From: an uncultured Alphaproteobacteria bacterium
GTDB lineage: Bacteria > Pseudomonadota > Alphaproteobacteria > Rickettsiales > CAIJLX01
Assembly: GCA_903821695.1 (NCBI GenBank)
Contig: CAIJLX010000057.1
Span: forward strand, 1 to 47,245
Direction of reading: 5' to 3'
DNA: 47,245 nucleotides
Part shown: piece by piece, positions 570 through 21,902 of the stretch
Numbering within the stretch: the stretch's first letter is position 1
Layout: each line of letters opens with the position of its first letter
Program-made: the position numbers and the translations under genes
Notes under the pieces: model-generated
Told to the model about the DNA's origin: nothing
Databases searched by the model: none
Seen by the model: the letters and a program-made list of their open reading frames with translations, nothing else

Positions 570-2660
570 TTACAATTTCATCCCTGCAAACACCTCATAA
601 TCATATAAATCCAACAGTTTTTTAACTGCCTCACCCCGCGGCGAAGTAAGCTCAGGATCGCGATTTAATATATATGCCGCATCATCGCGGGCGATGGTGA
701 GAAGCGATGTATGCACACTCAAATCTGCATGGCGAAAATCTGGGAAGCCGCTTTGTTTTTTGCCCACCATATCGCCCATACCGCGCAGACGCATATCAGC
801 CTCGGCGATCTCGAACCCATCTTCCGTTTCGCGCATTACTTTTAGGCGGTCATGTGCGGTTCTGCCGGCGCTATCGGCATAAAGCAGCAAGCAACTAGAA
901 GGTTTGTCGCCCCGCCCTACCCTGCCCCGCAATTGATGTAATTGGGAAAGGCCAAAACGCTCAGCATGTTCAATCACCATCACCGTTGCTTCGCGTACAT
1001 CGACGCCCACTTCAATCACCGTGGTCGCGATTAAAATATCAATCTCACCCTTGCGAAAGGCTTGCATCGTTGGCTCTCGGTCGGCTTGTTTCATACGACC
1101 ATGCACTAAGCCAATGCGTGGGTAATGCACTTTCATTGCTTCGAAGCGCTGCTCAGCCGCCGCCAAATCTAAATCCTCCGATTCTGCAACCAGCGGGCAC
1201 ACCCAATAAATACGCGAGCCTTGGGCGATCACCCGTTTTAATCCTTCGACCACTTCCATCAAACGTGAAAGCGGCAACACACGTGTATCAATCGGTTTTC
1301 GCCCAGCCGGTTTTTCGCGCAGGGTAGAAAGTTCCATATCGCCATAGCATGTGAGTGCAAGCGTGCGAGGAATGGGCGTTGCGCTCATCATCAACACATG
1401 CGTGCCTTTGGATTTTTCAATGAGTTGCAAACGTTGCTGCACACCAAAGCGATGTTGCTCATCAATCACCACCAATCCCAATTGTTTGAACGCAACACTT
1501 TGCTCGATCAATGCATGCGTGCCGATGACGAGATGCACCGCGCCAGTTGCGATATCCTGCTGCAATTTTTTCTTCGCTTTGCTTTGCGCAGTCAATAATT
1601 CAACGCGGATGCCGAGTGGGTTCAGCAATGCTTGGATCGTATTATAATGCTGGCGAGAAAGAAGTTCCGTCGGCGCCATTAATGCTGCTTGTGTGCCAGC
1701 TTCGATTGCTTGCAGCATCAGTAGCAGCGCGACAATGGTTTTACCGCTGCCAACATCACCCTGCAAAAGGCGCACCATACGATGGCCTTTTTTCATATCG
1801 GCGCTCAGTTCACACACCACTTCTTGTTGGCCTGTGGTTAACGTAAATGGCAGGCTTGCTATTAATTTTTGTACCAACATTCCATCGCCATTGAGCACCT
1901 GCCCGCTTTCGCGCGTATGTTTGCGGCGGGCCAATGCGAGCGCTAATTGATGGGCTAGTAACTCATCATACGCCAAACGCTGGCGGGCGGGTGAAAGTGG
2001 CTCTAACATTTCGGCGGATTGCGGATGGTGGAGTGAGAATAATGCTTCTTTCCAGCTGACGAATTTTTGTTTTTTGATGAATTCTGCGTCGCTCCATTCG
2101 GGATAATCCGGCAGATGCGGCAGGGCACGTTTTAAATAATTGAGAATCATTTTATTGCTAACACCAGCCGTCAACGGATACACCGGCTCCACCCGCCGTA
2201 CTTCCGCTTCGCGCTCTAATGGAACGATATAATCCGGATGTGGCATCGTTAAAATATCGCCCGCCATTTCGACTCTGCCACTCACAATTCGCCACTGGCC
2301 GATGGGAAGTTGGCGTTGTAAATAATCGCCCTTCACATGAAAGAAAATGAGAACAATACGTTCGCCTTGCTCATCGCGGCACCAGATGCGGTAAGGTCTG
2401 CGCGAGGAGGGATGTGGCACGGGTTGGTGCTCTTCCGCTTCTAACTTGATGGTGATGATATCGCCGGCTTTGGCTTGGCCAAGTGGCGTGTTTTTCCGGC
2501 GGTCTACTAATGAGACGGGTAAATGAAACAACAACTGTTTTTGGTTTTGGATACCGAGTTTTTTCATCAATGCGGCCCGCTTTTCCGGAATGCCCGGAAG
2601 CGGCGGCAGCGGCGCGGAAAGGAAATCAGGCAACGGGTTCGATGATCGTGTTGCCGGCAT
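570..2660 (-). CDS. recG: ATP-dependent DNA helicase RecG
   Basis: RecG remodels stalled replication forks and branch-migrates Holliday junctions. The 696-residue length is normal. An N-terminal wedge/OB domain (roughly residues 20-200) precedes two helicase lobes: Walker A GDVGSGKT at 301-308, the Walker B DEQH box at about 400-403, motif III MSATPIPRTLAL near 425, and the lobe-2 arginine region QLRGRVGRG. The C-terminal region has the RecG-type GMGDMVGKKQSGFPDF segment. The start codon lies 35 bases inside the upstream GGDEF-like gene, so the two are probably translationally coupled. It is the last gene of the long minus-strand envelope operon. Confidence 0.97.
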   Translation of the reverse strand: MPATRSSNPLPDFLSAPLPPLPGIPEKRAALMKKLGIQNQKQLLFHLPVSLVDRRKNTPLGQAKAGDIITIKLEAEEHQPVPHPSSRRPYRIWCRDEQGERIVLIFFHVKGDYLQRQLPIGQWRIVSGRVEMAGDILTMPHPDYIVPLEREAEVRRVEPVYPLTAGVSNKMILNYLKRALPHLPDYPEWSDAEFIKKQKFVSWKEALFSLHHPQSAEMLEPLSPARQRLAYDELLAHQLALALARRKHTRESGQVLNGDGMLVQKLIASLPFTLTTGQQEVVCELSADMKKGHRMVRLLQGDVGSGKTIVALLLMLQAIEAGTQAALMAPTELLSRQHYNTIQALLNPLGIRVELLTAQSKAKKKLQQDIATGAVHLVIGTHALIEQSVAFKQLGLVVIDEQHRFGVQQRLQLIEKSKGTHVLMMSATPIPRTLALTCYGDMELSTLREKPAGRKPIDTRVLPLSRLMEVVEGLKRVIAQGSRIYWVCPLVAESEDLDLAAAEQRFEAMKVHYPRIGLVHGRMKQADREPTMQAFRKGEIDILIATTVIEVGVDVREATVMVIEHAERFGLSQLHQLRGRVGRGDKPSSCLLLYADSAGRTAHDRLKVMRETEDGFEIAEADMRLRGMGDMVGKKQSGFPDFRHADLSVHTSLLTIARDDAAYILNRDPELTSPRGEAVKKLLDLYDYEVFAGMKL

Positions 2661-3525
2661 TGAGTTCCGCCTCGCGTATCATGCGTTGGCATTGTTCGAT
2701 TTGTGCGGTTGGCAAACCTTTGCCTGTCAGTTCAAAATAACTCGCAGTGAGCGTGACAGAAACTTTTTCCTTCGGCAATTCGACCGGATGCGCTTCAAAC
2801 ATCCAGCGAATACGATTGAGCGGAATTTTCGCATTTTCTTTTTTGGTTTCGAGCAACAACACCGCAACACGGTTAGGCTCAACATACCCCATCACATCAT
2901 CTTCCCGCAGATTGGTGGTGACCACTTGCCCCATATGCTTGAACAAAATCTTGGAAGATTCCTGCCCATGTTTATGCGTGATTTCATTATATTGGTCGAT
3001 GCGCAGCAACGCGAGACACGCACTTACTTTATTTTGCGCCACCGCCTCATTCACAATTTTCAAATATTTGAGGAACGAGGTCCGGTTCGGCAGCCCAATG
3101 ATCGGCTCCAGCACATCTTGCTCTGGCGCTTCTGTCATCCCCAATTGCGCACGCAGGCTTTCGATCACTTTCAGACGGCTGATATGCAATTGAAAACGTG
3201 GGTTCTCATTATCGCTCATGCCACGTAAAATTTTTAGCGAAAAGCGAATCTCGCGGCCTTTTTTATGCAGCAATGCGAACTTCGAAATTTTGCTTAATAC
3301 GGCCGACAAATCTTGAATCTCATCGCCAAATTCAAGATAGTTTTCGATCATATCTTGAATATTGCGCGGTAAAATCATCCGCAAATCTTTGCCGATCAAT
3401 TCATCTGCATCGAGCGCCAAATGATGCTGCAAATCTGGGTCTACAGACATAATCGTCAAGGTTTTTTCAGCTTGGTTCTGAAGCACTTCCAGCTGCAAAT
3501 CATCTCTGCGGGTAGCACTGCTCAT
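2626..3525 (-). CDS. PAS-like plus degenerate GGDEF-domain protein
   Basis: The 299-residue protein has an N-terminal PAS-like segment (about residues 10-115: ADELIGKDLRMILP, then a predicted sheet ending RFQLHISRL). After a short helix comes a GGDEF-type cyclase fold opening with LPNRTSFLKYL. The catalytic loop that would read RYGGDEF reads GYVEPNR, so the signature is gone and diguanylate cyclase activity is not expected. A role as a sensor, a GTP/c-di-GMP binding protein or a partner of the adjacent EAL protein is inference. It follows the EAL gene with a one-base TAATG overlap and overlaps recG by 35 bases. The product is soluble, with no membrane segment. Confidence 0.75.
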   Translation of the reverse strand: MSSATRRDDLQLEVLQNQAEKTLTIMSVDPDLQHHLALDADELIGKDLRMILPRNIQDMIENYLEFGDEIQDLSAVLSKISKFALLHKKGREIRFSLKILRGMSDNENPRFQLHISRLKVIESLRAQLGMTEAPEQDVLEPIIGLPNRTSFLKYLKIVNEAVAQNKVSACLALLRIDQYNEITHKHGQESSKILFKHMGQVVTTNLREDDVMGYVEPNRVAVLLLETKKENAKIPLNRIRWMFEAHPVELPKEKVSVTLTASYFELTGKGLPTAQIEQCQRMIREAELNAGNTIIEPVA

Positions 3526-4793
3526 TAGTTTATCACCTGTGAAACGGGATCAACCATTTTATCCGTATGCCGCCCTTGGAACATGGTAATGCCAAGCCCC
3601 TGGCCATATTCAATCGCCTGCGGACTATCACACCGGCATAACACGACACGCGCCGGCCCAATGCGTTTCACCGCATCTTCCATCGGCTTATGATTCACTT
3701 GTGCGAGCGCTGCGCGGCTATCCGCACTCCACAGCAATTTGATCAGATCAAAATCAAGCTGTTGGCGGTCAAGCTGGGTGAAGCCCTGACGTGTAAGCCC
3801 ATCAATGCAAATCCGGTAGCCTAAATTATGCGCAAGGTTGCGTGCCGCGATATAGGCGTTCATATCGGCAAACACATCGGCGACTGAAATTTCTAAAATC
3901 AGCGATGGCTTCATTTGCATTTTGACACGCTGGTCAAACTCCGCAAATGCCGTAGAAAGAATGGTTTCGACATTAATATTAATGCTCACCGGCGAACGCA
4001 TATAAAGGCTTGCCCGCGCGCCCAAAACGCTCAACACATGCAAATCCAGGCATTCGGTGAGATATTTGAACAGGCCTTTATTCGCCGTAAAATCGACCTG
4101 CATGCCGACTAGTTTACGTAAGTGCGGAATATTCACATAAATTTCTTCAAACACAGGCCGGATGCTGCCATCACGCATCACGATGCAAATCGGCTGGCGG
4201 CGGAAAGCCTGGCTTAAATCTGCCCGACGCAAATCACCTTCGATCATCGCCAGCCGCGAAAGATTGATCGGTTGCAACGCATTCGCTCCGCCATAACCCG
4301 AATTGGCATTTTGCGCGCCAGAGTCACGTGGCGGCGTATAAAAAGCAGGCGCACCCATGCTGGATTCGGCGGCACGGTTACGAGTACTGCCCATAAATTT
4401 GGTGCGGCAAATTTCCTGTACGTCGCGCCATTGGAAACCCAAATCATACACTTCGCAGAAATCTTTGGTCTCCTCGCCGTTCATGTCATACGCGAGCGGA
4501 TCATCGACAAATAAATAACGCAGCTGGAAAATCGCTTTTTCGATGAGGCCGCGGTCATTGCCGGGGTACATCAGCACCACATCGGAATCCTGCGTGAGTG
4601 CCACAGTCGCATCCGTGTCACGAAACAAATCCTGCAATACGTTAACCGCGATTTTGAGTTGATAGTCGCTGCGGTAATGTTCTTGCAGGCGCGAAAGATG
4701 GAACAGCACGAAGTAATGGCCGGAGCCATTTTCCTTCAAACCCGTCACCAATTCCAGCAGCTTACCTTCCGGCGCAGACAGTAATAATTTCAT
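3525..4793 (-). CDS. Degenerate EAL-domain protein
   Basis: From the ATG at 4793 the product has 422 residues; a TTG 18 bases upstream is possible but less likely. The N-terminal part (about 1-130) may be a worn GGDEF-like fold. The C-terminal half follows the EAL phosphodiesterase pattern but with key changes: the EAL position reads FEEI, the second metal-ligand block reads LEISVAD instead of LEITES, and the IDDFG block reads IDGLTRQ, so the paired aspartates are lost. Active c-di-GMP hydrolysis is therefore unlikely. A binding or scaffold role is inference. It lies 42 bases after lpxA and touches the GGDEF-like gene by one base. Confidence 0.75.
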   Translation of the reverse strand: MKLLLSAPEGKLLELVTGLKENGSGHYFVLFHLSRLQEHYRSDYQLKIAVNVLQDLFRDTDATVALTQDSDVVLMYPGNDRGLIEKAIFQLRYLFVDDPLAYDMNGEETKDFCEVYDLGFQWRDVQEICRTKFMGSTRNRAAESSMGAPAFYTPPRDSGAQNANSGYGGANALQPINLSRLAMIEGDLRRADLSQAFRRQPICIVMRDGSIRPVFEEIYVNIPHLRKLVGMQVDFTANKGLFKYLTECLDLHVLSVLGARASLYMRSPVSININVETILSTAFAEFDQRVKMQMKPSLILEISVADVFADMNAYIAARNLAHNLGYRICIDGLTRQGFTQLDRQQLDFDLIKLLWSADSRAALAQVNHKPMEDAVKRIGPARVVLCRCDSPQAIEYGQGLGITMFQGRHTDKMVDPVSQVIN

Positions 4794-4835
4794 ACACTTA
4801 TGGTGTAGCAAAACCTGTAAGCCACGAAAAGGATT

Positions 4836-13678: not shown

Positions 13679-14233
13679 TTAAATTTGCATGATATCTTTT
13701 TCTTTAGCGACGAGAATCTCATCAACTTTCTTGATGTAGCTATCAGTCACTTTCTGCACTTCCTCGCTTTTGCCAGCGATTTCATCTTTAGAAATGCCGC
13801 CATCTTTTTCCATTTTCTTCAAATCGTCCATCCCATCACGGCGGATATTGCGGATGGCAACACGCTGCTGCTCACCATATTTCTGCGCGACTTTCACCAG
13901 CTCCTTACGGCGCTCACCGGAAAGTTCCGGCGTAGGCACACGAATCACCTGCCCTTCCGCCGCTGGGTTTAAACCAAGCCCAGCAATCCGGATCGCTTTT
14001 TCAACCGCAGCCGCCATCGCCCTGTCCCATACCTGCACAACCAACATTCTCGATTCCGGCACGCTGACAGAGGCCAACTGATTAAGCGGCATCATCCCGC
14101 CATAGGCTTCCACTTGCACGGTATCCAACATCGAAGCAGAAGCCCGGCCGGTGCGCAGACCTTTCATTTCTTCCTGAAATGTATGGAGTGCCCCATCCAT
14201 GCGTTTTTTCAAATCATTCATGTCAAATGCCAT
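13679..14233 (-). CDS. frr: Ribosome recycling factor
   Basis: Frr splits post-termination ribosomes together with EF-G. The 184-residue protein has the family's three-helix bundle and hinge: the LRTGRAS block near residues 26-32, [22 protein letters not shown] in the beta-rich domain, and the [15 protein letters not shown] segment. GAGG lies five bases before ATG. It appears to be the first gene of the minus-strand operon. The usual upstream neighbours rpsB, tsf and pyrH are not adjacent; a divergent hemL cluster is. Confidence 0.97.
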
Positions 14234-14261
14234 AAGTGCCTCATCTTTGTTTTGTTGCCTA

Positions 14262-14289
14262 GATATAACGGCTCAGTATTTAAGCGCAA
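14262..14289 (-). promoter_or_regulatory. Possible sigma70 promoter for the frr operon
   Basis: Read on the minus strand, TTGCGC (14284-14289) and TATATC (14262-14267) are separated by 16 bases, about 30 bases ahead of the frr start codon. A TATCTA box two bases further downstream gives an 18-base spacer as an alternative. Position and spacing fit; the call is by eye. Confidence 0.35.
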
Positions 14290-14304
14290 GAGGGAGCTTT
14301 TTTC

Positions 14305-14378
14305 GTCATCCTCGGGCTTGACCCGAGGACCTCCCTCAGCTTGTTGTACGAGATCCTCGGGTCAAGCCCGAGGATGAC
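14305..14378. repeat. REP-like pair: 25-bp perfect inverted repeat
   Basis: Bases 14305-14329 are the exact reverse complement of 14354-14378, with a 24-base spacer. Each arm is itself a hairpin (CCTCGGG, five-base loop, CCCGAGG) and begins, read outward-in, with GTCATCC. The element lies between divergently transcribed frr and hemL, so it is not an ordinary terminator. It shares the GTCAT...palindrome plan with the pair at 22919-23008. Confidence 0.85.
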
Positions 14379-14409
14379 AATAGGAATAAAACTGCTAAAC
14401 ACTATCCCC

Positions 14410-15702
14410 ATGCAATTTTCAAACGAAGAATGGTTCACGAAAGCCAAAGCCGTCACCCCTGGTGGGGTTGATTCCCCTGTCCGCGCATTTAAAGGCGTAG
14501 GCGGCACCCCGCGTTTCATGCAATCCGCCAGCGGTGCGACGCTAACCGATGTCGAAGGCAAAAAATATATCGATTATTGCATGAGTTGGGGCCCCCTCAT
14601 GTTCGGCCACCGCGACGCCGAAATTGAAGCCGCTATTATAGATGCATTGGCCAAAGGCTGGACCTATGGCACCGCCTCGCCTTATTCGGTGTTATTGGCA
14701 GAGCTTATCGTCAAAGAAATCCCCTGCGTTGAAAAAATCCGCTTCGTCAATTCAGGCACCGAAGCCGTGATGTCCGCCCTACGCGTCGCTCGTGGTGCCA
14801 CCAAACGCACGAAAATCGTAAAATTCGATGGCTGTTATCATGGCCATGTCGATAGCCTTTTAATCCGCGCCGGCTCGGGCCTTGCCGAAATGGCTTCGCC
14901 CGATAGCGCTGGCGTAACCCCTGCCCAAGCTGGGGATACTATTGTTGCACCACTGGATGATGAACAAGCCCTCGAAACCATTTTTAAAACTCATGGCAAT
15001 GAGATTGCGGCACTTATTATTGAACCCTTGCCCGCCAATAATGGTCTGCTGCCACAACGCCCGGAATTTTTGAAATTCCTACGCGAGGTTACAACGCGCT
15101 ATGGCGCATTGCTGATTTTTGATGAAGTGATGTCTGGTTTCCGCATCGGCTTTGGCGGCATGGCAGAAGAAACGGGCATCACGCCCGATCTAATTACATA
15201 TGGAAAAATTATCGGCGGTGGGTTTCCTGTAGGGGCCTATGGCGGCAGAAAAGAACTCATGGATTTAGTTGCACCCCAAGGCCCTGTCTATCAAGCAGGC
15301 ACCCTCTCTGGCAACCCTGTCGCGATGACCGCTGGCATCACCATGCTCAAAAAATTATTAAACGAAAAACCATTCGCTAACTTACAAAAAGCGACCGAAT
15401 CACTTGGCAAAACAGTAGAAAAAATCGCTGCGAAATATGCGCCTTATCCGATTACCGTGCAATCACACGGCTCAAAATTCTGGATGATCTGTGGCGAAAC
15501 AAAAGGCACAGTGCGCCACATCAACCAAATTCCGCCGGAACATAAGGAACGTTTTGCTGGAATTTTTCATGGCTTATTAAAACGTGGTTTTTATTTAGCG
15601 CCTAGTGGATTTGAAGTCGGATTTATGGCAACAGTACACACGTCGGAAATCAACGCCGCCTTCGCCACCGCTTTTGAAGATGTTTTAAAAGAACAACAAT
15701 AA
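14410..15702 (+). CDS. hemL: Glutamate-1-semialdehyde 2,1-aminomutase
   Basis: HemL converts glutamate-1-semialdehyde to 5-aminolevulinate, the last step of the C5 route to heme. The 430-residue protein is a fold-type I PLP aminotransferase: N-terminal PGGVDSPVRAF substrate block, SGTEAVMSALR phosphate-binding region, LLIFDEVMSGFR with the PLP-pairing aspartate, and YGKIIGGG with the Schiff-base lysine K266. The ATG at 14410 was chosen over an upstream TTG because MQFSNEEWFTKA matches the family start and the upstream part lies in the palindrome. It heads a cluster with a sensor kinase, a regulator, hemE and a protoporphyrinogen oxidase. Most Alphaproteobacteria lack HemL because they use ALA synthase. 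Confidence 0.96.
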   Translation: MQFSNEEWFTKAKAVTPGGVDSPVRAFKGVGGTPRFMQSASGATLTDVEGKKYIDYCMSWGPLMFGHRDAEIEAAIIDALAKGWTYGTASPYSVLLAELIVKEIPCVEKIRFVNSGTEAVMSALRVARGATKRTKIVKFDGCYHGHVDSLLIRAGSGLAEMASPDSAGVTPAQAGDTIVAPLDDEQALETIFKTHGNEIAALIIEPLPANNGLLPQRPEFLKFLREVTTRYGALLIFDEVMSGFRIGFGGMAEETGITPDLITYGKIIGGGFPVGAYGGRKELMDLVAPQGPVYQAGTLSGNPVAMTAGITMLKKLLNEKPFANLQKATESLGKTVEKIAAKYAPYPITVQSHGSKFWMICGETKGTVRHINQIPPEHKERFAGIFHGLLKRGFYLAPSGFEVGFMATVHTSEINAAFATAFEDVLKEQQ

Positions 15703-15703
15703 T

Positions 15704-16564
15704 ATGCAAAAAAAATGCCCTATACCTAATCCTACAGTTCGGGTGCGCATGCTCGTGCTCTTGGAATTGCTGCGCTCCGCATTGATGCTCGCCATCATTA
15801 TCTGGTGGGGTTGGCTGTTGATTGATGCCAATAAAGACCGCCAAATGATTTATGGTGAAGCCGCCGCCATGATCGTACTCGTTTCGTTAAGCACTTTTTT
15901 ATCGCTCTGGTTTTACTTGCGCGATATCCGCCGCGCTCGCGAATTAAAATCCTTCTTCGCCTCTATGGCACATGAATTGCGCAATCCCCTTGCAAGCATT
16001 CGTTTGGGCGTGGAAGCCTTAGCTCAAAAAACAAAATCACCTATAACGACTCGCTTAATTAATGATACTTCACGCCTAGAAGCACAAATCGAACGCGGCC
16101 TGGAATTGGCACGCGTCGAAAGCGGAAAAATGCTGCCGCTCACCGGAGTTGATTTAGCCCAAAGCTGGAAACGTGCGCTCACTTTGTTCCCACTCTCCGA
16201 ACAAAACCGCCTAAAAATCACCCAAGGCAAATTCACCTTCGTGTTGGCGGAAGAACAATGCGTACAGGTTATTTTCCGCAATCTCATCGAAAACGCACTG
16301 GCACATGCCGGCAAAAAAACAGTCTCGATATTTATCCATGCTGAAACCAAAGATGATCAAGTGATGGTTACCTTCCGTGATAATGGCGCAGGCTTTATCG
16401 GCGATAAAAGAAAATTGGGTCAGTTATTTTACAAAGGCAAACAATCCAAAGGCACCGGCCTTGGTTTGCATTTAATTCAATCATTAATGCGAGCGCAACG
16501 CGGAAGTGCTAAATTTAAAGGCGACGATGGTTTCGCCGCTATCCTCACCTTCCAAAAGGTATAA
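15704..16564 (+). CDS. Membrane sensor histidine kinase of the heme cluster
   Basis: The 286-residue kinase has two transmembrane helices (about residues 17-40 and 52-72) joined by a loop of only about 11 residues, with no periplasmic sensor domain and no HAMP. This is the architecture of intramembrane-sensing kinases. The H box is FASMAHELRNPLAS (H90), followed by the N box NLIENALAHA, G1 DNGAGF and G2 KGTGLGLHLI. It starts one base after the hemL stop and ends one base before the response regulator, so the three are co-translated. A signal linked to heme, oxygen or membrane state is inference from context only. Confidence 0.93.
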   Translation: MQKKCPIPNPTVRVRMLVLLELLRSALMLAIIIWWGWLLIDANKDRQMIYGEAAAMIVLVSLSTFLSLWFYLRDIRRARELKSFFASMAHELRNPLASIRLGVEALAQKTKSPITTRLINDTSRLEAQIERGLELARVESGKMLPLTGVDLAQSWKRALTLFPLSEQNRLKITQGKFTFVLAEEQCVQVIFRNLIENALAHAGKKTVSIFIHAETKDDQVMVTFRDNGAGFIGDKRKLGQLFYKGKQSKGTGLGLHLIQSLMRAQRGSAKFKGDDGFAAILTFQKV

Positions 16565-16565
16565 C

Positions 16566-17219
16566 ATGCCAAAAAAAATTCCATTATTGTTGGTTGAAGA
16601 TGAAGAAAATCTCGGCGCTACATTGAAGGAATTATTAGAGGGCGAGCATTATGCCGTCACCTGGGCGAAAGATAAAAAAAATGCGCTGGTGGATATTAAA
16701 GCGATTCCATTTGATATCGCATTGCTCGATGTAAACTTGCCCGATGGCACCGGTTTTCAAGTCGCCGAAAGCTTGCAAAACACCGCGATGATTTTCCTCA
16801 CCGCGATGAGCGACCCCGAGCATCGTGTCCGCGGATTACAACTGGGCGCAGAAGATTATATCGTCAAGCCGTTCCATTTTCAGGAACTCACCCTGCGAAT
16901 TAAAAATGCTTTAAAACGCAAAGATTATATCCAGAGCACCAGCCCGATCGCCCAAATTGGCAGCATAAAAGTCGATTTCACGCGCTTCACATTAAACGAC
17001 AAACCACTCGCCGCGAAAGAGGCAAAGCTCCTTAAACTACTCTATGATCGCCGCGGAAAAGTGGTAAGCCGCGATGAAATTTTAAACCATGTTTGGCCCC
17101 GCGAAACTTACCCCACCGCCCGCACGGTCGATAATTTTATTTCCAAATTGCGCAAATTGCTCGGCCCCGATAGCATCAAAAGCATCCGTAGCGTGGGCTA
17201 TCAATTGAGGGAAGAATGA
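16566..17219 (+). CDS. OmpR-family response regulator of the heme cluster
   Basis: The 217-residue protein has a receiver domain (acid pair E11/D12, phosphoacceptor D55 in LLDVNLPDG, T79, K101 in YIVKPF) and a C-terminal winged helix (DEILNHVWPRE..RTVDNFISKLRKLL...SIRSVGYQL) that binds DNA. The kinase encoded directly upstream is its likely partner. Its stop codon overlaps the hemE start by four bases. The ATG at 16566 was chosen because MPKKIPLLLVEDEE is the normal receiver start; the longer frame would run into the kinase gene. Confidence 0.95.
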   Translation: MPKKIPLLLVEDEENLGATLKELLEGEHYAVTWAKDKKNALVDIKAIPFDIALLDVNLPDGTGFQVAESLQNTAMIFLTAMSDPEHRVRGLQLGAEDYIVKPFHFQELTLRIKNALKRKDYIQSTSPIAQIGSIKVDFTRFTLNDKPLAAKEAKLLKLLYDRRGKVVSRDEILNHVWPRETYPTARTVDNFISKLRKLLGPDSIKSIRSVGYQLREE

Positions 17220-18253
17220 ACTTATTCCAACAAACATTAGAACGAAAAAACAATTCGGGTATTCCGCCTATCTGGTTTATGCGCCAAGCCGGGCGTTATC
17301 ATTCCCATTATCAAAATCTGCGTAAAACACATAGCTTTCTCGATGTCTGCAAAAAACCCGAGGTGAGCGTCGAGGCAGCGTTGGGCCCAGTGCAAGATTT
17401 TGATTACGACGCTGCAATTTTATTTTCTGATATTTTATTCCCACTCGAAGCAATGGGCATCGAACTTGATTTCAACCCCGCTCCCCATCTCGGCCATTTG
17501 CTCCATTCTGTCAGCGATCTAAAATATTACCAAACAGCAAAAGATCCACGCAGCTATTTCAAATTCCAAGCTGATGCCCTTAGACTTCTCAAGCAAAAAT
17601 TACCGACAGAAAAAGGCCTAATCGGTTTCGTCGGCGGCCCGCTCACTATTTATCAATTCGCTGTTTCCGGGTCTGGCAAAAACGAAGGCCCTATCCCCGG
17701 CATTGAGAGCAGCCGCTTCTCCGGCTTCATGGAAAAACTTATTCCATTATTGATCGAAAACATGTTGGTACAAGCGGAAGCCGGCATTGACTGCATCGCC
17801 ATTCTCGATAGCTGCGCCGGTAAAATTTCGAAACAGGACTATTGGGATATTTATTTGCCCTACCTCTCCCGCCTCATTTGCGCCTTCAAAGGCCAAATGC
17901 CTCATATTCAATTGGTGTATTATTCCAAAGGCACCCACGCCGAATATTGGGATTGCTTGGCGGGTTTACCAATTGATGGCCTAGGGATCGACCACACTAA
18001 TAACCTCGCCAAAACTCTAAAAGATTATGGTACACGCTATGCGATCCAAGGCAATATCGACCCCGAATGGATGCGCCTGCCATGGGCGCAGTTGAAACCG
18101 AAATTGGAAACTGTTTTCGCGGAAGTAAAAGCACTGCCCCAAGAATGCCGCAAAGGCTGGATTTGCGGGCTTGGACACGGCATTCTGCCGGATGTGCCGG
18201 AAGCAAATGTGAAGCAATTTGTGACATTGGTGCGCGAGTTCTTTGGCAGGTAG
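17216..18253 (+). CDS. hemE: Uroporphyrinogen decarboxylase
   Basis: HemE removes four carboxyl groups from uroporphyrinogen III to give coproporphyrinogen III. The 345-residue protein opens with the active-site block PPIWFMRQAGRYHSHY (R23 and R27 in the usual substrate-binding positions), has ILFSDILFPLEAMG with the catalytic aspartate, and the GNIDPEWM and CGLGHGILPDVPEANV blocks near the C-terminus. It overlaps the regulator gene by four bases. Confidence 0.97.
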   Translation: MNLFQQTLERKNNSGIPPIWFMRQAGRYHSHYQNLRKTHSFLDVCKKPEVSVEAALGPVQDFDYDAAILFSDILFPLEAMGIELDFNPAPHLGHLLHSVSDLKYYQTAKDPRSYFKFQADALRLLKQKLPTEKGLIGFVGGPLTIYQFAVSGSGKNEGPIPGIESSRFSGFMEKLIPLLIENMLVQAEAGIDCIAILDSCAGKISKQDYWDIYLPYLSRLICAFKGQMPHIQLVYYSKGTHAEYWDCLAGLPIDGLGIDHTNNLAKTLKDYGTRYAIQGNIDPEWMRLPWAQLKPKLETVFAEVKALPQECRKGWICGLGHGILPDVPEANVKQFVTLVREFFGR

Positions 18254-18319
18254 TTCTACTCCTGGGCGACAACTCTCAAGAAAGTCGCCAAACACCGATT
18301 AATTTAGTAAAAGAGATTA

Positions 18320-19585
18320 ATGCTCGGCGGTTTAAACCCACTCAAAGAACAAGCGACTATTATCGGCGGCGGCATCTCGGGCATGCTTGCAGCCTATTAT
18401 CTCGGCGATCGCGGATTCGAAGTGTCGCTGCACGAAAAGGGCCCTTGGGTCGGCGGGCTTTTAGATACCACCCATTATTCCTATGGCATGGTCGAACAAT
18501 CCGCCCATTCGATTCGCGCCTCCAAACCCGTGTTGCAGCTATGTGCCGATATTGGTGTTGAACTAACACCACTTAAAGGCAGCCAATCTTCTTATATTTT
18601 CCGCGATGGAAAATTGCATCGCATGCCCCTTTATTTCGGCGAGACATTAGCAATGATCGCGCGGATGGTCAGCCGGCCGAAGGTGGGCGAAAAGAAAACA
18701 CTAGAAGAGTTTGGCCTACGCCATATGGGAAAACCGGCAACCGATTACTTACTCGCCCCCATGGCCTTCAGCATTTACGGCGCGCGGCCCTCGGAATTAC
18801 AGGTGCCCGAAGCATTTCCGCGCTTCAATTTAGAACCATCCCGCAATTTATTTTCGCACATGCTTGAGCGAAAAATAAAAGGCCGCGGAAGCGCCCCCAT
18901 GGTCGCACCCAAATACGGTATGGGCGATCTAGTCAAAAAACTAGAGGCAGCCCTGCGCACTATGCCCAATGTGGCCCTACATACCCAAAGCGAAGTCACC
19001 TATTTAGAACCCGGCGAAAACCGCATTCTCGCTACGCCCGCTTATATAACAGCGAAATTAATTGCCGATGAAGACCCTTACACTGCTTCATTATTAGCAG
19101 ATGTGAAATATGCACCATTGATCACAGTCACCGTGTTTCTCGAGCGCGATTCCATGCGGCATTTCCCCAATGGCATGGGGGTATTGATCCCGGAAGTAGA
19201 ACAAATTCCTATTCTTGGCATATTATTTAATTCTTCCAACTTTGAAGGCCGAGTAGTTGATATTGGCATCGAATCTCTCACGGTATTATGTAGCGGAACA
19301 CCGCATCCGGAATTAATCGATAAAGATGATACGGAAATTGAAGCTCTTATTACTGACGCGTTGGATAAAGTTTTAGGCCTCAAACAACCGCCGCTTAAGA
19401 TGCATATCACCCGCTGGGAAAAAGCCATTCCGCTTTATAACGCCCATCTCGCACTGGCGCAGCAGCGTGCACGCGAAGGCTGGGGCGCATTGCTGGGCAA
19501 CGTATTGTTCGGCAATTATACGGGCCAAGTTTCCATCCGTGGGTTGATTGAAGATAGTCTGCATTTTACAGAGAATGAGGCATAA
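18320..19585 (+). CDS. hemY: FAD-dependent protoporphyrinogen oxidase (HemY type)
   Basis: This enzyme oxidises protoporphyrinogen IX to protoporphyrin IX using FAD and oxygen. The 421-residue protein has an N-terminal dinucleotide fold GGGISG (16-21) with HEKGPWVGG, a central YGMGDLVKKLE segment, and a C-terminal stretch (GVLIPEVEQIPILGILFNSSNFEGR, later HITRWEKAIPLYN and GNYTGQVSIRGLIEDSL) characteristic of the HemG/HemY PPO family. Adjacent hemE supports the role. It is slightly shorter than typical members. Many Alphaproteobacteria use HemJ instead. A different amine-oxidase family member is possible but less likely. A 66-base gap with a weak hairpin (18265-18289) separates it from hemE. 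Confidence 0.85.
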   Translation: MLGGLNPLKEQATIIGGGISGMLAAYYLGDRGFEVSLHEKGPWVGGLLDTTHYSYGMVEQSAHSIRASKPVLQLCADIGVELTPLKGSQSSYIFRDGKLHRMPLYFGETLAMIARMVSRPKVGEKKTLEEFGLRHMGKPATDYLLAPMAFSIYGARPSELQVPEAFPRFNLEPSRNLFSHMLERKIKGRGSAPMVAPKYGMGDLVKKLEAALRTMPNVALHTQSEVTYLEPGENRILATPAYITAKLIADEDPYTASLLADVKYAPLITVTVFLERDSMRHFPNGMGVLIPEVEQIPILGILFNSSNFEGRVVDIGIESLTVLCSGTPHPELIDKDDTEIEALITDALDKVLGLKQPPLKMHITRWEKAIPLYNAHLALAQQRAREGWGALLGNVLFGNYTGQVSIRGLIEDSLHFTENEA

Positions 19586-20328
19586 TGTTCCGCCCCGATG
19601 TCACCGATCTGCACAGTTTTTACAGCACCCCCTTGGGCATGGCGACCTGCCGCGCACTGCGTTGGGCCATCCGCCAATTGCTGCCAAGTAAACCAGAAAA
19701 CACCGTGCAACAAATGATCGGCCTCGGTTACGCGCTGCCCTATCTGCTGCCATTTTTGGAACAAGATAAAAACCGCATCGGCGCCGTAATGCCAGCCGGT
19801 CAAGGCGTCATCCATTGGCCACGCAATAATACGGATAACCTCACTGTCCTCGCCGAAGAAACCGAATTGCCTTTCCATAACCAAAGCATCGATAAAACCC
19901 TCATCATCCACTCGCTTGAATTCACCGACATGGAATTATTCTTGCCCGAACTCTGGCGCATTCTCTCCCCAGGCGGACAAGCCCTATTCATCGTGCCGAG
20001 TCGCACCGGATGTTGGAGCCGCGCCGAAAAAACGCCCTTCGGCCACGGCAGACCCTATAGCGCCATGCAGTTGGAAAAAGCGTTGAAGGAAGCCTTCTTC
20101 ATCCCTGTCAAAACCACCCACGCTTTGTTCATGCCGCCCACGCAAATAAGAGGTTTGCTGCATTTTTCGCGATTATTAGAGCGCATCGGGCATTTTCTGG
20201 GCCTGCCATTTGGCGGTGTGGTGATGGTGCTTGCCGAAAAACGCGTGCATGCGCCGATAAATGGCCTAAAAAAGCCCGCTTTTGTGCCTGGACCTGCTCG
20301 TGCAGCGATAGGATTGCGTCGAGATTAA
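19585..20328 (+). CDS. SAM-dependent methyltransferase, alphaproteobacterial type
   Basis: The 247-residue protein begins with the characteristic FYSTPLGMATCRALRWAIRQL block, then a reduced SAM motif (MIGLGYALPYLLPFL), the NLTVLAEETELPF stretch, IDKTLIIHSLEFT and the LSPGGQALFIVP turn, and ends with TPFGHGRPYS and LFMPPTQIRGLLH. I recognise this arrangement from alphaproteobacterial class I methyltransferases often placed near gloB; the substrate is not known. Motif I lacks the usual GxGxG spacing, reading GLGYALP. It overlaps the oxidase gene by one base (TAATG), so it belongs to the heme transcript here. Confidence 0.8.
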   Translation: MFRPDVTDLHSFYSTPLGMATCRALRWAIRQLLPSKPENTVQQMIGLGYALPYLLPFLEQDKNRIGAVMPAGQGVIHWPRNNTDNLTVLAEETELPFHNQSIDKTLIIHSLEFTDMELFLPELWRILSPGGQALFIVPSRTGCWSRAEKTPFGHGRPYSAMQLEKALKEAFFIPVKTTHALFMPPTQIRGLLHFSRLLERIGHFLGLPFGGVVMVLAEKRVHAPINGLKKPAFVPGPARAAIGLRRD

Positions 20329-20350
20329 TTTCCCGATATAAGTGCCAGAT

Positions 20351-21106
20351 ATGAACAAAATGCAGGCTGAAAAAGTTAATTTATTTTATGGTGCGAAACA
20401 GGCATTGTTTGATGTCTCGCTTAACATCCAGAAAAACCGCGTTACCTCGCTGATCGGCCCTTCCGGCTGCGGAAAATCCACATTCTTGCGCACGTTAAAC
20501 CGCATGAATGACACAATCGCCGGCTGCCGCATTCAAGGAAAAACCACACTCGATAATGCCGATATTTATGATCCGAAAGTGGATGTAGTTCTCTTGCGCC
20601 AACGTGTTGGCATGGTGTTTCAAAAACCAAACCCATTCCCCAAATCGATTTATGAAAACGTGGCCTATGGCCCCAAAATTCATAGCCTAACAAATACTAA
20701 AGCTGAACTCGATGCGTTGGTTGAATCATCGCTTAAAAAAGCGGGCCTCTGGAACGAAGTGAAGGATCGCCTGCAAGAATCCGGTGTGTCGCTTTCCGGT
20801 GGCCAGCAGCAACGCCTCTGCATTGCTCGCACGATTGCGATTAATCCGGAAGTGGTGTTGATGGATGAGCCTTGTTCAGCACTAGACCCCATCGCAACCG
20901 GCATCGTGGAAGAGCTGATCGGCGAGCTGAAACATAATTATACGATCGTGATCGTGACCCACTCCATGGCGCAGGCGCAGCGTGTGTCGGACCTAACGGC
21001 ATTCTTCCATCTCGGCAAAATAATCGAAACTGGCGAAACACGCGAATTGTTCAGCAAACCCCAGCAAAAACAAACGGCGGATTACATCCAGGGCAAGTTT
21101 GGTTGA
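20351..21106 (+). CDS. pstB: Phosphate import ATP-binding protein PstB
   Basis: PstB powers the PstSCAB phosphate ABC transporter. From the ATG at 20351 (a GTG nine bases upstream is possible) the product has 251 residues with Walker [10 protein letters not shown] (36-44), the PstB-type [15 protein letters not shown]-loop segment, signature LSGGQQQR, Walker [13 protein letters not shown] and the switch histidine in IVTHSMAQA. It is the only pst gene here: pstS, pstC and pstA are absent upstream and phoU is absent between it and phoB. Confidence 0.95.
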
Positions 21107-21188
21107 TGCTTGGGTTAAAGCCGTGTATTATGGCCGTGACAACATCAAAATAACTTGCTAACATCTTGGTAATTAGAGGGTTTTTTAA

Positions 21189-21902
21189 ATGAAAGAATCG
21201 GTCGCAAAACCTTTAATCCTTGTCGTTGAGGATGAAAGCGCAATCGTTACAATGCTGAAATACAATCTGGAGCATAATGGCTTCCGGGTAAATGTCGCAA
21301 CCGATGGCGAAGAAGCCATGATGGCTGTTGACGAACAAAAACCAGATTTGATTTTGTTGGACTGGATGCTTCCTTCCATTTCCGGCGTGCAAGTGTGCGA
21401 ACGTTTGCGCATTAAAGATAACACCCGCCTAATCCCAATCATTATGCTCACCGCCCGTGGCGAAGAGAGCGATCGTATTCGCGGTCTCGATAGTGGCGCG
21501 GATGATTACATGACAAAACCTTTCTCACCCAATGAGCTTGTTGCACGAATTAATGCACTATTGCGCCGTACACGGCCGGTGTTTGCATCGAAATCATTAA
21601 GTTTCGGCGGTATCACGGTCGATTTGAATACCCATCGCGTGAGCATCGGCAAAGAAGATGTGCATTTAGGCCCAACCGAATTCCGCCTGCTCTGCCACTT
21701 CCTCGAAACACCAAACCAAGTGTTCTCGCGCGAGCAATTGCTCGATGCAGTCTGGGGCTATGATATTTATGTCGAACTGCGCACCGTCGATGTGCATGTT
21801 CGCCGTTTGCGCAAATCTCTGGGCGATACGAAAAAAGGCCTCGATGACATCATCAAAACCTTACGTTCTGTCGGTTATGTGATGGAAGCGTTGCCGAAAT
21901 GA
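21189..21902 (+). CDS. phoB: Phosphate regulon response regulator PhoB
   Basis: PhoB activates phosphate-starvation genes. The 237-residue protein has a receiver domain (acid pair E14/D15, phosphoacceptor D58 in LLDWMLPSISG, LTARGEES, K in MTKPF) and a winged-helix output domain (LGPTEFRLLCHFLE, FSREQLLDAVWG, RTVDVHVRRLRKSL). Its closeness to pstB and the PhoB-like spacing of the WMLP and GPTEFRLL blocks favour PhoB over another OmpR-family member. GAGGG precedes the start by nine bases. No phoR kinase is adjacent. It overlaps the next gene by four bases. Confidence 0.9.
   Translation: MKESVAKPLILVVEDESAIVTMLKYNLEHNGFRVNVATDGEEAMMAVDEQKPDLILLDWMLPSISGVQVCERLRIKDNTRLIPIIMLTARGEESDRIRGLDSGADDYMTKPFSPNELVARINALLRRTRPVFASKSLSFGGITVDLNTHRVSIGKEDVHLGPTEFRLLCHFLETPNQVFSREQLLDAVWGYDIYVELRTVDVHVRRLRKSLGDTKKGLDDIIKTLRSVGYVMEALPK

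Follow-up and report, generated by a model that had tools for sequence, protein, structure and literature searches.

A HemKR-type two-component system among the C5 heme genes of a Rickettsiales bacterium, probably of lateral origin

The HemKR two-component system of Leptospira (Hklep/Rrlep; hemACBLENG locus) is the closest known system to the kinase-regulator pair described here, which lies between hemL and hemE on contig CAIJLX010000057.1 (C57) of an uncultured alphaproteobacterium of the order Rickettsiales. The whole contig, 47,245 nucleotides in length, was analyzed and is called the window. In Leptospira, HemK phosphorylates HemR and the phosphorylated HemR activates hemA (PMC11426443). 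5-Aminolevulinic acid (ALA) makes HemK dephosphorylate HemR, as was shown in L. biflexa, and HemK reduced to its cytoplasmic part is locked in the kinase state (PMC11426443). The published HemR site is TGACA-N6-TGACA, a type of site that has been tested as a target of HemR in Leptospira (PMC11426443). The L. interrogans pair sits between hemE and hemL (PMC2266917). The 32-residue loop of Leptospira HemK can be replaced with complementation being kept, and removal of the membrane part abolishes complementation (PMC2266917).

In the literature searched, HemKR is described from Leptospira only, with one unpublished mention of Bdellovibrio bacteriovorus, where two-component genes are linked to heme biosynthesis genes (data not shown; PMC2266917). 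Glutamyl-tRNA reductase (GluTR), encoded by hemA, was stated in 2018 as not annotated in any alphaproteobacterium (PMC6154995). The bacterium studied here is a further HemKR case in an unexpected host, the type of system being already known from Leptospira. Comparison of genes, trees and flanks argues that the window very probably contains half of a HemKR-controlled locus for the five-carbon (C5) route to ALA, of the Leptospira kind, which would have been gained laterally as a unit and later split.

The hem genes and their Leptospira counterparts

The second enzyme of the C5 route, glutamate-1-semialdehyde 2,1-aminomutase (430 aa), is encoded by hemL at 14410..15702. On the same forward strand follow a HemK-type sensor histidine kinase of 286 aa (15704..16564; HisKA and HATPase_c domains), a HemR-type response regulator of the OmpR/PhoB family with 217 aa (16566..17219; Response_reg and Trans_reg_C), the uroporphyrinogen decarboxylase gene hemE (17216..18253; 345 aa; URO-D, 264 bits), of which a single copy was found in the host genome, and a hemY-type protoporphyrinogen oxidase gene (18320..19585; 421 aa; TIGR00562, 129 bits for a cut-off of 97.85). 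One nucleotide separates hemL from the kinase gene and the latter from the regulator gene, the regulator gene and hemE overlap by 4 nt, and 66 nt lie between hemE and hemY. The gene order, the single strand and the tight hemL-hemE spacing given in a first-pass annotation were confirmed by the sequence. The best profile for HemL was NF000818 (556 bits, cut-off 398), while TIGR00713 gave 510 bits, under its cut-off of 527; the pyridoxal phosphate lysine is conserved within the GKIIGGG motif.

The hem locus of the host is in two blocks, hemL-kinase-regulator-hemE-hemY on C57 and hemA-hemCD-hemB on contig C91. When the host genome was searched with PF05201, one GluTR was found over the cut-off, on C91, where a short GluTR gene (~291 aa) is followed by hemCD (hemC, 482 aa) and hemB, the genes overlapping; lipA and a DnaJ gene lie upstream. 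This GluTR contains the GlutR_N domain and lacks the dimerisation domain PF00745, as in Leptospira, and its catalytic Cys is kept. The C-terminal part of the host HemC aligned with the HemD part of the Leptospira protein with 30% identity over 175 columns, which identifies a HemC-HemD fusion. No ALA synthase was found in the host genome by profile search; the sole ALA synthase-like match (239 bits, cut-off 339) was rejected, being bioF in a bioB-bioF-bioC cluster. Since GluTR and HemL are present and ALA synthase is absent, the host, judged by its gene content, uses the C5 route to ALA, as the first-pass annotation had supposed.

Named comparators were taken from a collection of 72,556 plasmid records, which includes L. 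interrogans since its second replicon was deposited as a plasmid. Leptospira ranked first or nearly first among the named matches of each hem-cluster protein tested by these sequence comparisons. The match to L. interrogans reached 475 bits for HemL (57.6% identity; next organism 389), 125 bits for the kinase (next organism 81), 142 bits for the regulator (42%; no other organism at E<=1e-30), 251 bits for HemE (40%; next organism 177), 84 bits for GluTR (next organism 61) and 263 bits for HemB (44%; next organism 226).

The L. interrogans record (NZ_CP043881.1) contains GluTR (289 aa), hemCD, hemB, hemL, kinase, regulator, hemE, hemN and hemG. Common to it and the host are the hemL-kinase-regulator-hemE order, the short GluTR (291 and 289 aa in host and L. 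interrogans, respectively), the HemC-HemD fusion and hemB overlapping hemCD. In both, the kinase is of the HisKA type with two transmembrane segments, the regulator is of the OmpR/PhoB type, and hemA is preceded on its coding strand by an exact TGACA-N6-TGACA. In contrast to Leptospira, the host locus is split over two contigs and lacks hemN, and a HemJ-family protein is also present in the host. The short Leptospira GluTR (L080:8546-9415) is annotated "hypothetical protein" in the deposited record.

A related arrangement was found in G221, an alphaproteobacterium of another order with a 5.4 Mb genome and a cluster hemA-hemL-kinase-regulator-hemC-hemE (L072). As in the host, the pair lies between hemL and hemE (with hemC also between), a HemR site precedes hemA and the trees are congruent. 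Unlike the host, G221 has a full-length GluTR (448 aa), a separate hemC and hemF-hemJ-hemH nearby. Its identity to the host proteins is 51% for HemL, 37% for the regulator and 27% for the kinase.

The hydropathy profile of the kinase showed two hydrophobic segments, at approximately residues 14-41 and 48-73, so that the extracytoplasmic loop is only ~6-14 residues long, compared to ~32 in Leptospira and ~76 in G221. A WW pair at the end of the first transmembrane segment is invariant across these three kinases. By alignment with HemK, the phospho-acceptor is His90 (15971-15973) and the phosphatase residue Asn94 (15983-15985), these positions spanning 15971..15985 on the forward strand. In HisKA kinases, the place +4 from the phospho-acceptor His is held by Thr or Asn (PMC11426443); it is Thr in Leptospira and G221. 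The phospho-acceptor Asp55 of the regulator (16728-16730) is invariant in the alignment.

Other two-component systems were also compared. The redox kinase model NF033792 (ActS/PrrB/RegB) gave 41 bits with the kinase, for a cut-off of 350, and the PhoB model TIGR02154 gave 138 bits with the regulator, for a cut-off of 296. The regulator belongs to the same OmpR/PhoB class as that of PhoBR, and the HemR site is Pho-box-like, but the window has, apart from this regulator, a gene for a true PhoB. In Pseudomonas, the AlgZR pair lies next to hemC-hemD, and AlgR is a LytTR-type regulator; the host regulator has a Trans_reg_C winged helix, and the two pairs are not relatives.

The HemR operator and the proposed control of hemA

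An exact TGACA-N6-TGACA site (hem-box) was found on the coding strand at C91:10597-10612; 24 nt separate it from the TTG annotated as the start of hemA. Exact hem-boxes on the coding strand also precede the hemA start in Leptospira (37 nt) and in G221 (59 nt), and each is the only copy in the fetched stretch of 19-25 kb. For one site placed at random on either strand of such a stretch, we estimate the chance of falling in the 80 nt before hemA, correctly oriented, at ~0.002 per locus. In the host, the second half-site forms the -35 element (ATGACA) of a hemA promoter, followed after 17 nt by the -10 element TATAAC; this placement suggests that hemA starts at a GTG four codons past the annotated TTG.

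The region before hemL (14234-14409), which the first-pass annotation had proposed as the binding target of the regulator, contained no TGACA-N6-TGACA with up to 2 mismatches allowed, and was thus probably the wrong place to look. Most of this frr-hemL intergenic region is occupied by a palindromic element at 14305..14378, read from the sequence, with arms at 14305-14329 (GTCATCCTCGGG) and 14354-14378 (CCCGAGGATGAC); it looks perfect and is REP-like (repetitive extragenic palindromic), not a HemR site. The palindrome resembles dispersed REP-type elements, and a related element, GTCATCCCGG, is present in L086.

By analogy with Leptospira, the host HemK would phosphorylate HemR by default, and phosphorylated HemR would bind the hem-box overlapping the hemA -35 element and turn on the GluTR-hemCD-hemB genes of C91. 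When ALA or later porphyrins build up, HemK would act as a phosphatase, the level of phosphorylated HemR would fall and hemA transcription would decrease. Since the kinase is nearly loopless, the signal, ALA or porphyrin supply, would be read through its membrane segments or on the cytoplasmic side. A membrane signal tied to heme or oxygen had been supposed at first for this kinase: the heme part agrees with the orthologous kinase, which responds to heme precursors and whose loop is dispensable (PMC2266917), and nothing was found for oxygen. As no hem-box precedes hemL, hemL-hemK-hemR-hemE-hemY is probably under another promoter, and the positive self-regulation that L. interrogans is expected to have, with hemKR lying inside the hemA operon, would then be lost.

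TGACA-N6-TGACA occurs in 20 exact copies in the host genome, compared to 3 copies of the reversed control motif. The other copies can mostly be read as Pho-box-like promoters in the opposite (TGTCA) orientation with a -10 element ~11 nt downstream; motif counts alone would therefore mislead, and a large HemR regulon drawn from the 20 copies was ruled out. Direct repeats of the form TGTCAT-N5-TGTCA with a TATAAT-like -10 element ~11 nt on were observed on contigs C2, C9, C22, C61, C80, C92, C103 and others (L081-L100). They precede many genes without an apparent link to phosphate, and form an unusually wide Pho-box-like promoter class.

Origin of the locus and alternative explanations

In the HemL tree, the host grouped with Leptospira with a support of 100/99, and G221 joined this pair with 100/99. 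The same pairing was obtained for the regulator (97/91; 87/79 with G221) and for the catalytic part of the kinase (99/92; 87/83 with G221). For HemE, the host and Leptospira grouped with 100/100 outside the clade formed by Rickettsiales and other alphaproteobacterial HemE, and the HemE of G221 did not join them. As these trees stand, HemL and HemE of the host do not nest in Alphaproteobacteria, in agreement with what had first been surmised.

The host is the sole sampled genome of its own family within Rickettsiales. The order was identified through the Rickettsia gltA primer pair: the RpCS.877p site was found, without mismatch, in three genomes belonging to one genus of the order, and in the two loci inspected the RpCS.1258n site followed, with one mismatch, at the expected distance of ~380 bp. 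ALA synthase was found in 50 of the 55 genomes of the order that were scanned, and HemL in a single one of 131, the host itself. Among 385 genomes of the class sample, four passed the HemL cut-off (G188, G213, G309 and G403), the HemL of G221 and of the host lying just under it. No orthologue of the kinase-regulator pair was found in 55 Rickettsiales genomes (best 56 bits) or in 398 genomes of the phylum, where the second-best score was 116 bits and the kinases were of generic type; among the 20 best loci of the phylum, not one had a hem gene beside the kinase. The kinase scan of named genomes returned generic kinases only, and scans of viral contigs gave nothing useful. The insertion of the pair, expected at first in relatives, is thus absent from the other sampled genomes of the order, where HemL itself is confined to the host, and recurs in Leptospira and G221.

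In four small alphaproteobacterial genomes (G309, G188, G403 and G213; L068-L071), a true HemL is encoded without the two-component pair. Their sequences form a separate clade in the HemL tree and represent another, separate spread of C5 genes within Alphaproteobacteria. In two nearly complete Rickettsiales genomes (G012 and G026), HemE is present, and no ALA synthase (E<=1e-90) or HemL was found; ALA import or an unusual ALA synthase is possible there.

Both flanks of the C57 block are native. On the left, frr (13679..14233, reverse strand; Pfam) begins the series frr-uppS-cdsA-dxr-rseP-bamA-lpxD, and the best match of dxr is alphaproteobacterial (Sphingomonas, 54%). On the right, a methyltransferase dependent on S-adenosylmethionine (19585..20328, forward strand), whose gene overlaps hemY by 1 nt, is followed by pstB and phoB (20342..21902, forward strand; pstB 72% identical to Sinorhizobium, PhoB 323 bits with TIGR02154 for a cut-off of 296). 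By sequence comparison, the methyltransferase is a native alphaproteobacterial gene, at which the foreign set ends on the right: all 21 matches found for it in the plasmid collection are alphaproteobacterial (identity up to 43%), and its GC content at third codon positions (GC3) is 60% vs 48-52% for the hem genes. The hemY gene probably belongs to the foreign set; its product is 27% identical to Leptospira HemG, and the score of 113 bits vs 105-111 for haloarchaea is not decisive. Thus, of the cluster first proposed, the hem genes and the pair are kept and the methyltransferase is removed, the set continuing on C91. The GC content of the hem genes (46-50%) is close to that of the flanks (49%), the Leptospira locus having 38.7%; this host-like composition indicates an old, ameliorated transfer. 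With alphaproteobacterial genes on either side, an inserted cassette rather than contamination is the better description, and the hemL-kinase-regulator-hemE block looks transferred as a unit, as had been suspected. Bdellovibrio is a possible donor lineage.

Vertical retention would make the C5 route and HemKR ancestral in Alphaproteobacteria, the relatives having switched to ALA synthase, and it would accommodate both the same block in G221 and the true HemL of the four small genomes. We give it very little credence, since HemL is so rare in the order and the class, is absent from four sampled relatives of G221, and in the four small genomes belongs to a clade of its own, while the host HemE groups with Leptospira and not with the Rickettsiales and alphaproteobacterial clade. 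It could also be argued that a contaminating organism, a spirochaete or some other bacterium, supplied the hem genes, the 2.1 Mb assembly being in 111 contigs and these genes foreign in kind. Such an artefact is scarcely credible: dxr, pstB and the methyltransferase are on the same contig, the hem genes are host-like in both GC and GC3, completeness is 100% with a contamination of 0.24%, and without these genes no ALA-forming route was found.

Two other explanations concern regulation. The hem-box before hemA could be a Pho box used by PhoB, the kinase-regulator pair being a passenger that acts on some other target; in favour are the Pho-box-like nature of TGTCA-N6-TGTCA, the PhoB gene of the window and the 20 exact copies of the motif. 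However, TATAAC lies 17 nt downstream of the hemA copy, read in the TGACA orientation, and this site precedes hemA in the same orientation in Leptospira and G221 and is a tested HemR target (PMC11426443), which makes the Pho-box explanation very unlikely. Operon-like spacing, a membrane-embedded sensor and the presence of the cytochrome oxidase gene coxA in the window would fit a pair acting on its own operon through 14234-14409 in response to oxygen or a redox signal. This must be considered highly improbable, given the mostly palindromic region without a site, the weak score with the redox-kinase model (41 vs 350 bits) and the response of the Leptospira orthologue to ALA (PMC11426443).

Several points weigh against the acquisition of a HemKR-controlled locus of the Leptospira kind. 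The identity of the kinase to Leptospira HemK is only 31%, Asn94 replaces Thr at its phosphatase position, and the support for G221 in the kinase and regulator trees is moderate. Read on the opposite strand, the hem-box is a Pho-box-like repeat, and the genome has 20 exact copies of it. The HemR of L. biflexa was not functionally replaced by that of L. interrogans (PMC2266917), an indication that the DNA sites bound can drift. As the named comparators came only from the plasmid collection, closer relatives may be missed; binding, phosphorylation and expression in the host are read across from the Leptospira orthologues.

Neighbouring observations and biological meaning

A HemJ-family protein (UPF0093, 96 bits) is encoded at L081:2246-2695, on contig C2 of the host (G000). 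It had been presumed that HemY takes the place of HemJ; with both present, the host has two candidate protoporphyrinogen oxidases. At 2626-4811 of the window, a GGDEF protein and a protein with a weak, sub-threshold EAL match adjoin lpxA. In addition, hemL was observed on ~30 small Piscirickettsia salmonis plasmid records (e.g. NZ_CP013945.1), with 49% identity to the HemL of the window.

ALA synthase is near-universal in Rickettsiales and usual in Alphaproteobacteria. In this host, it appears to have been exchanged for the C5 route, and the exchange would have brought a dedicated two-component control together with its DNA site. A whole feedback-controlled pathway may thus move between distant bacteria. 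We propose tentatively, our confidence being a little short of even, that HemKR is a portable cassette in which sensor, regulator, operator and C5 enzymes cross phyla together and replace the ALA synthase route, with at least two separate entries into Alphaproteobacteria, and that the near-loopless kinase shows the porphyrin signal to be read in the membrane. The three distant versions of HemK, in which the WW pair is constant and the loop shortens from ~76 residues to 32 and then to 6-14, would provide a comparative handle on what HemK senses and where.

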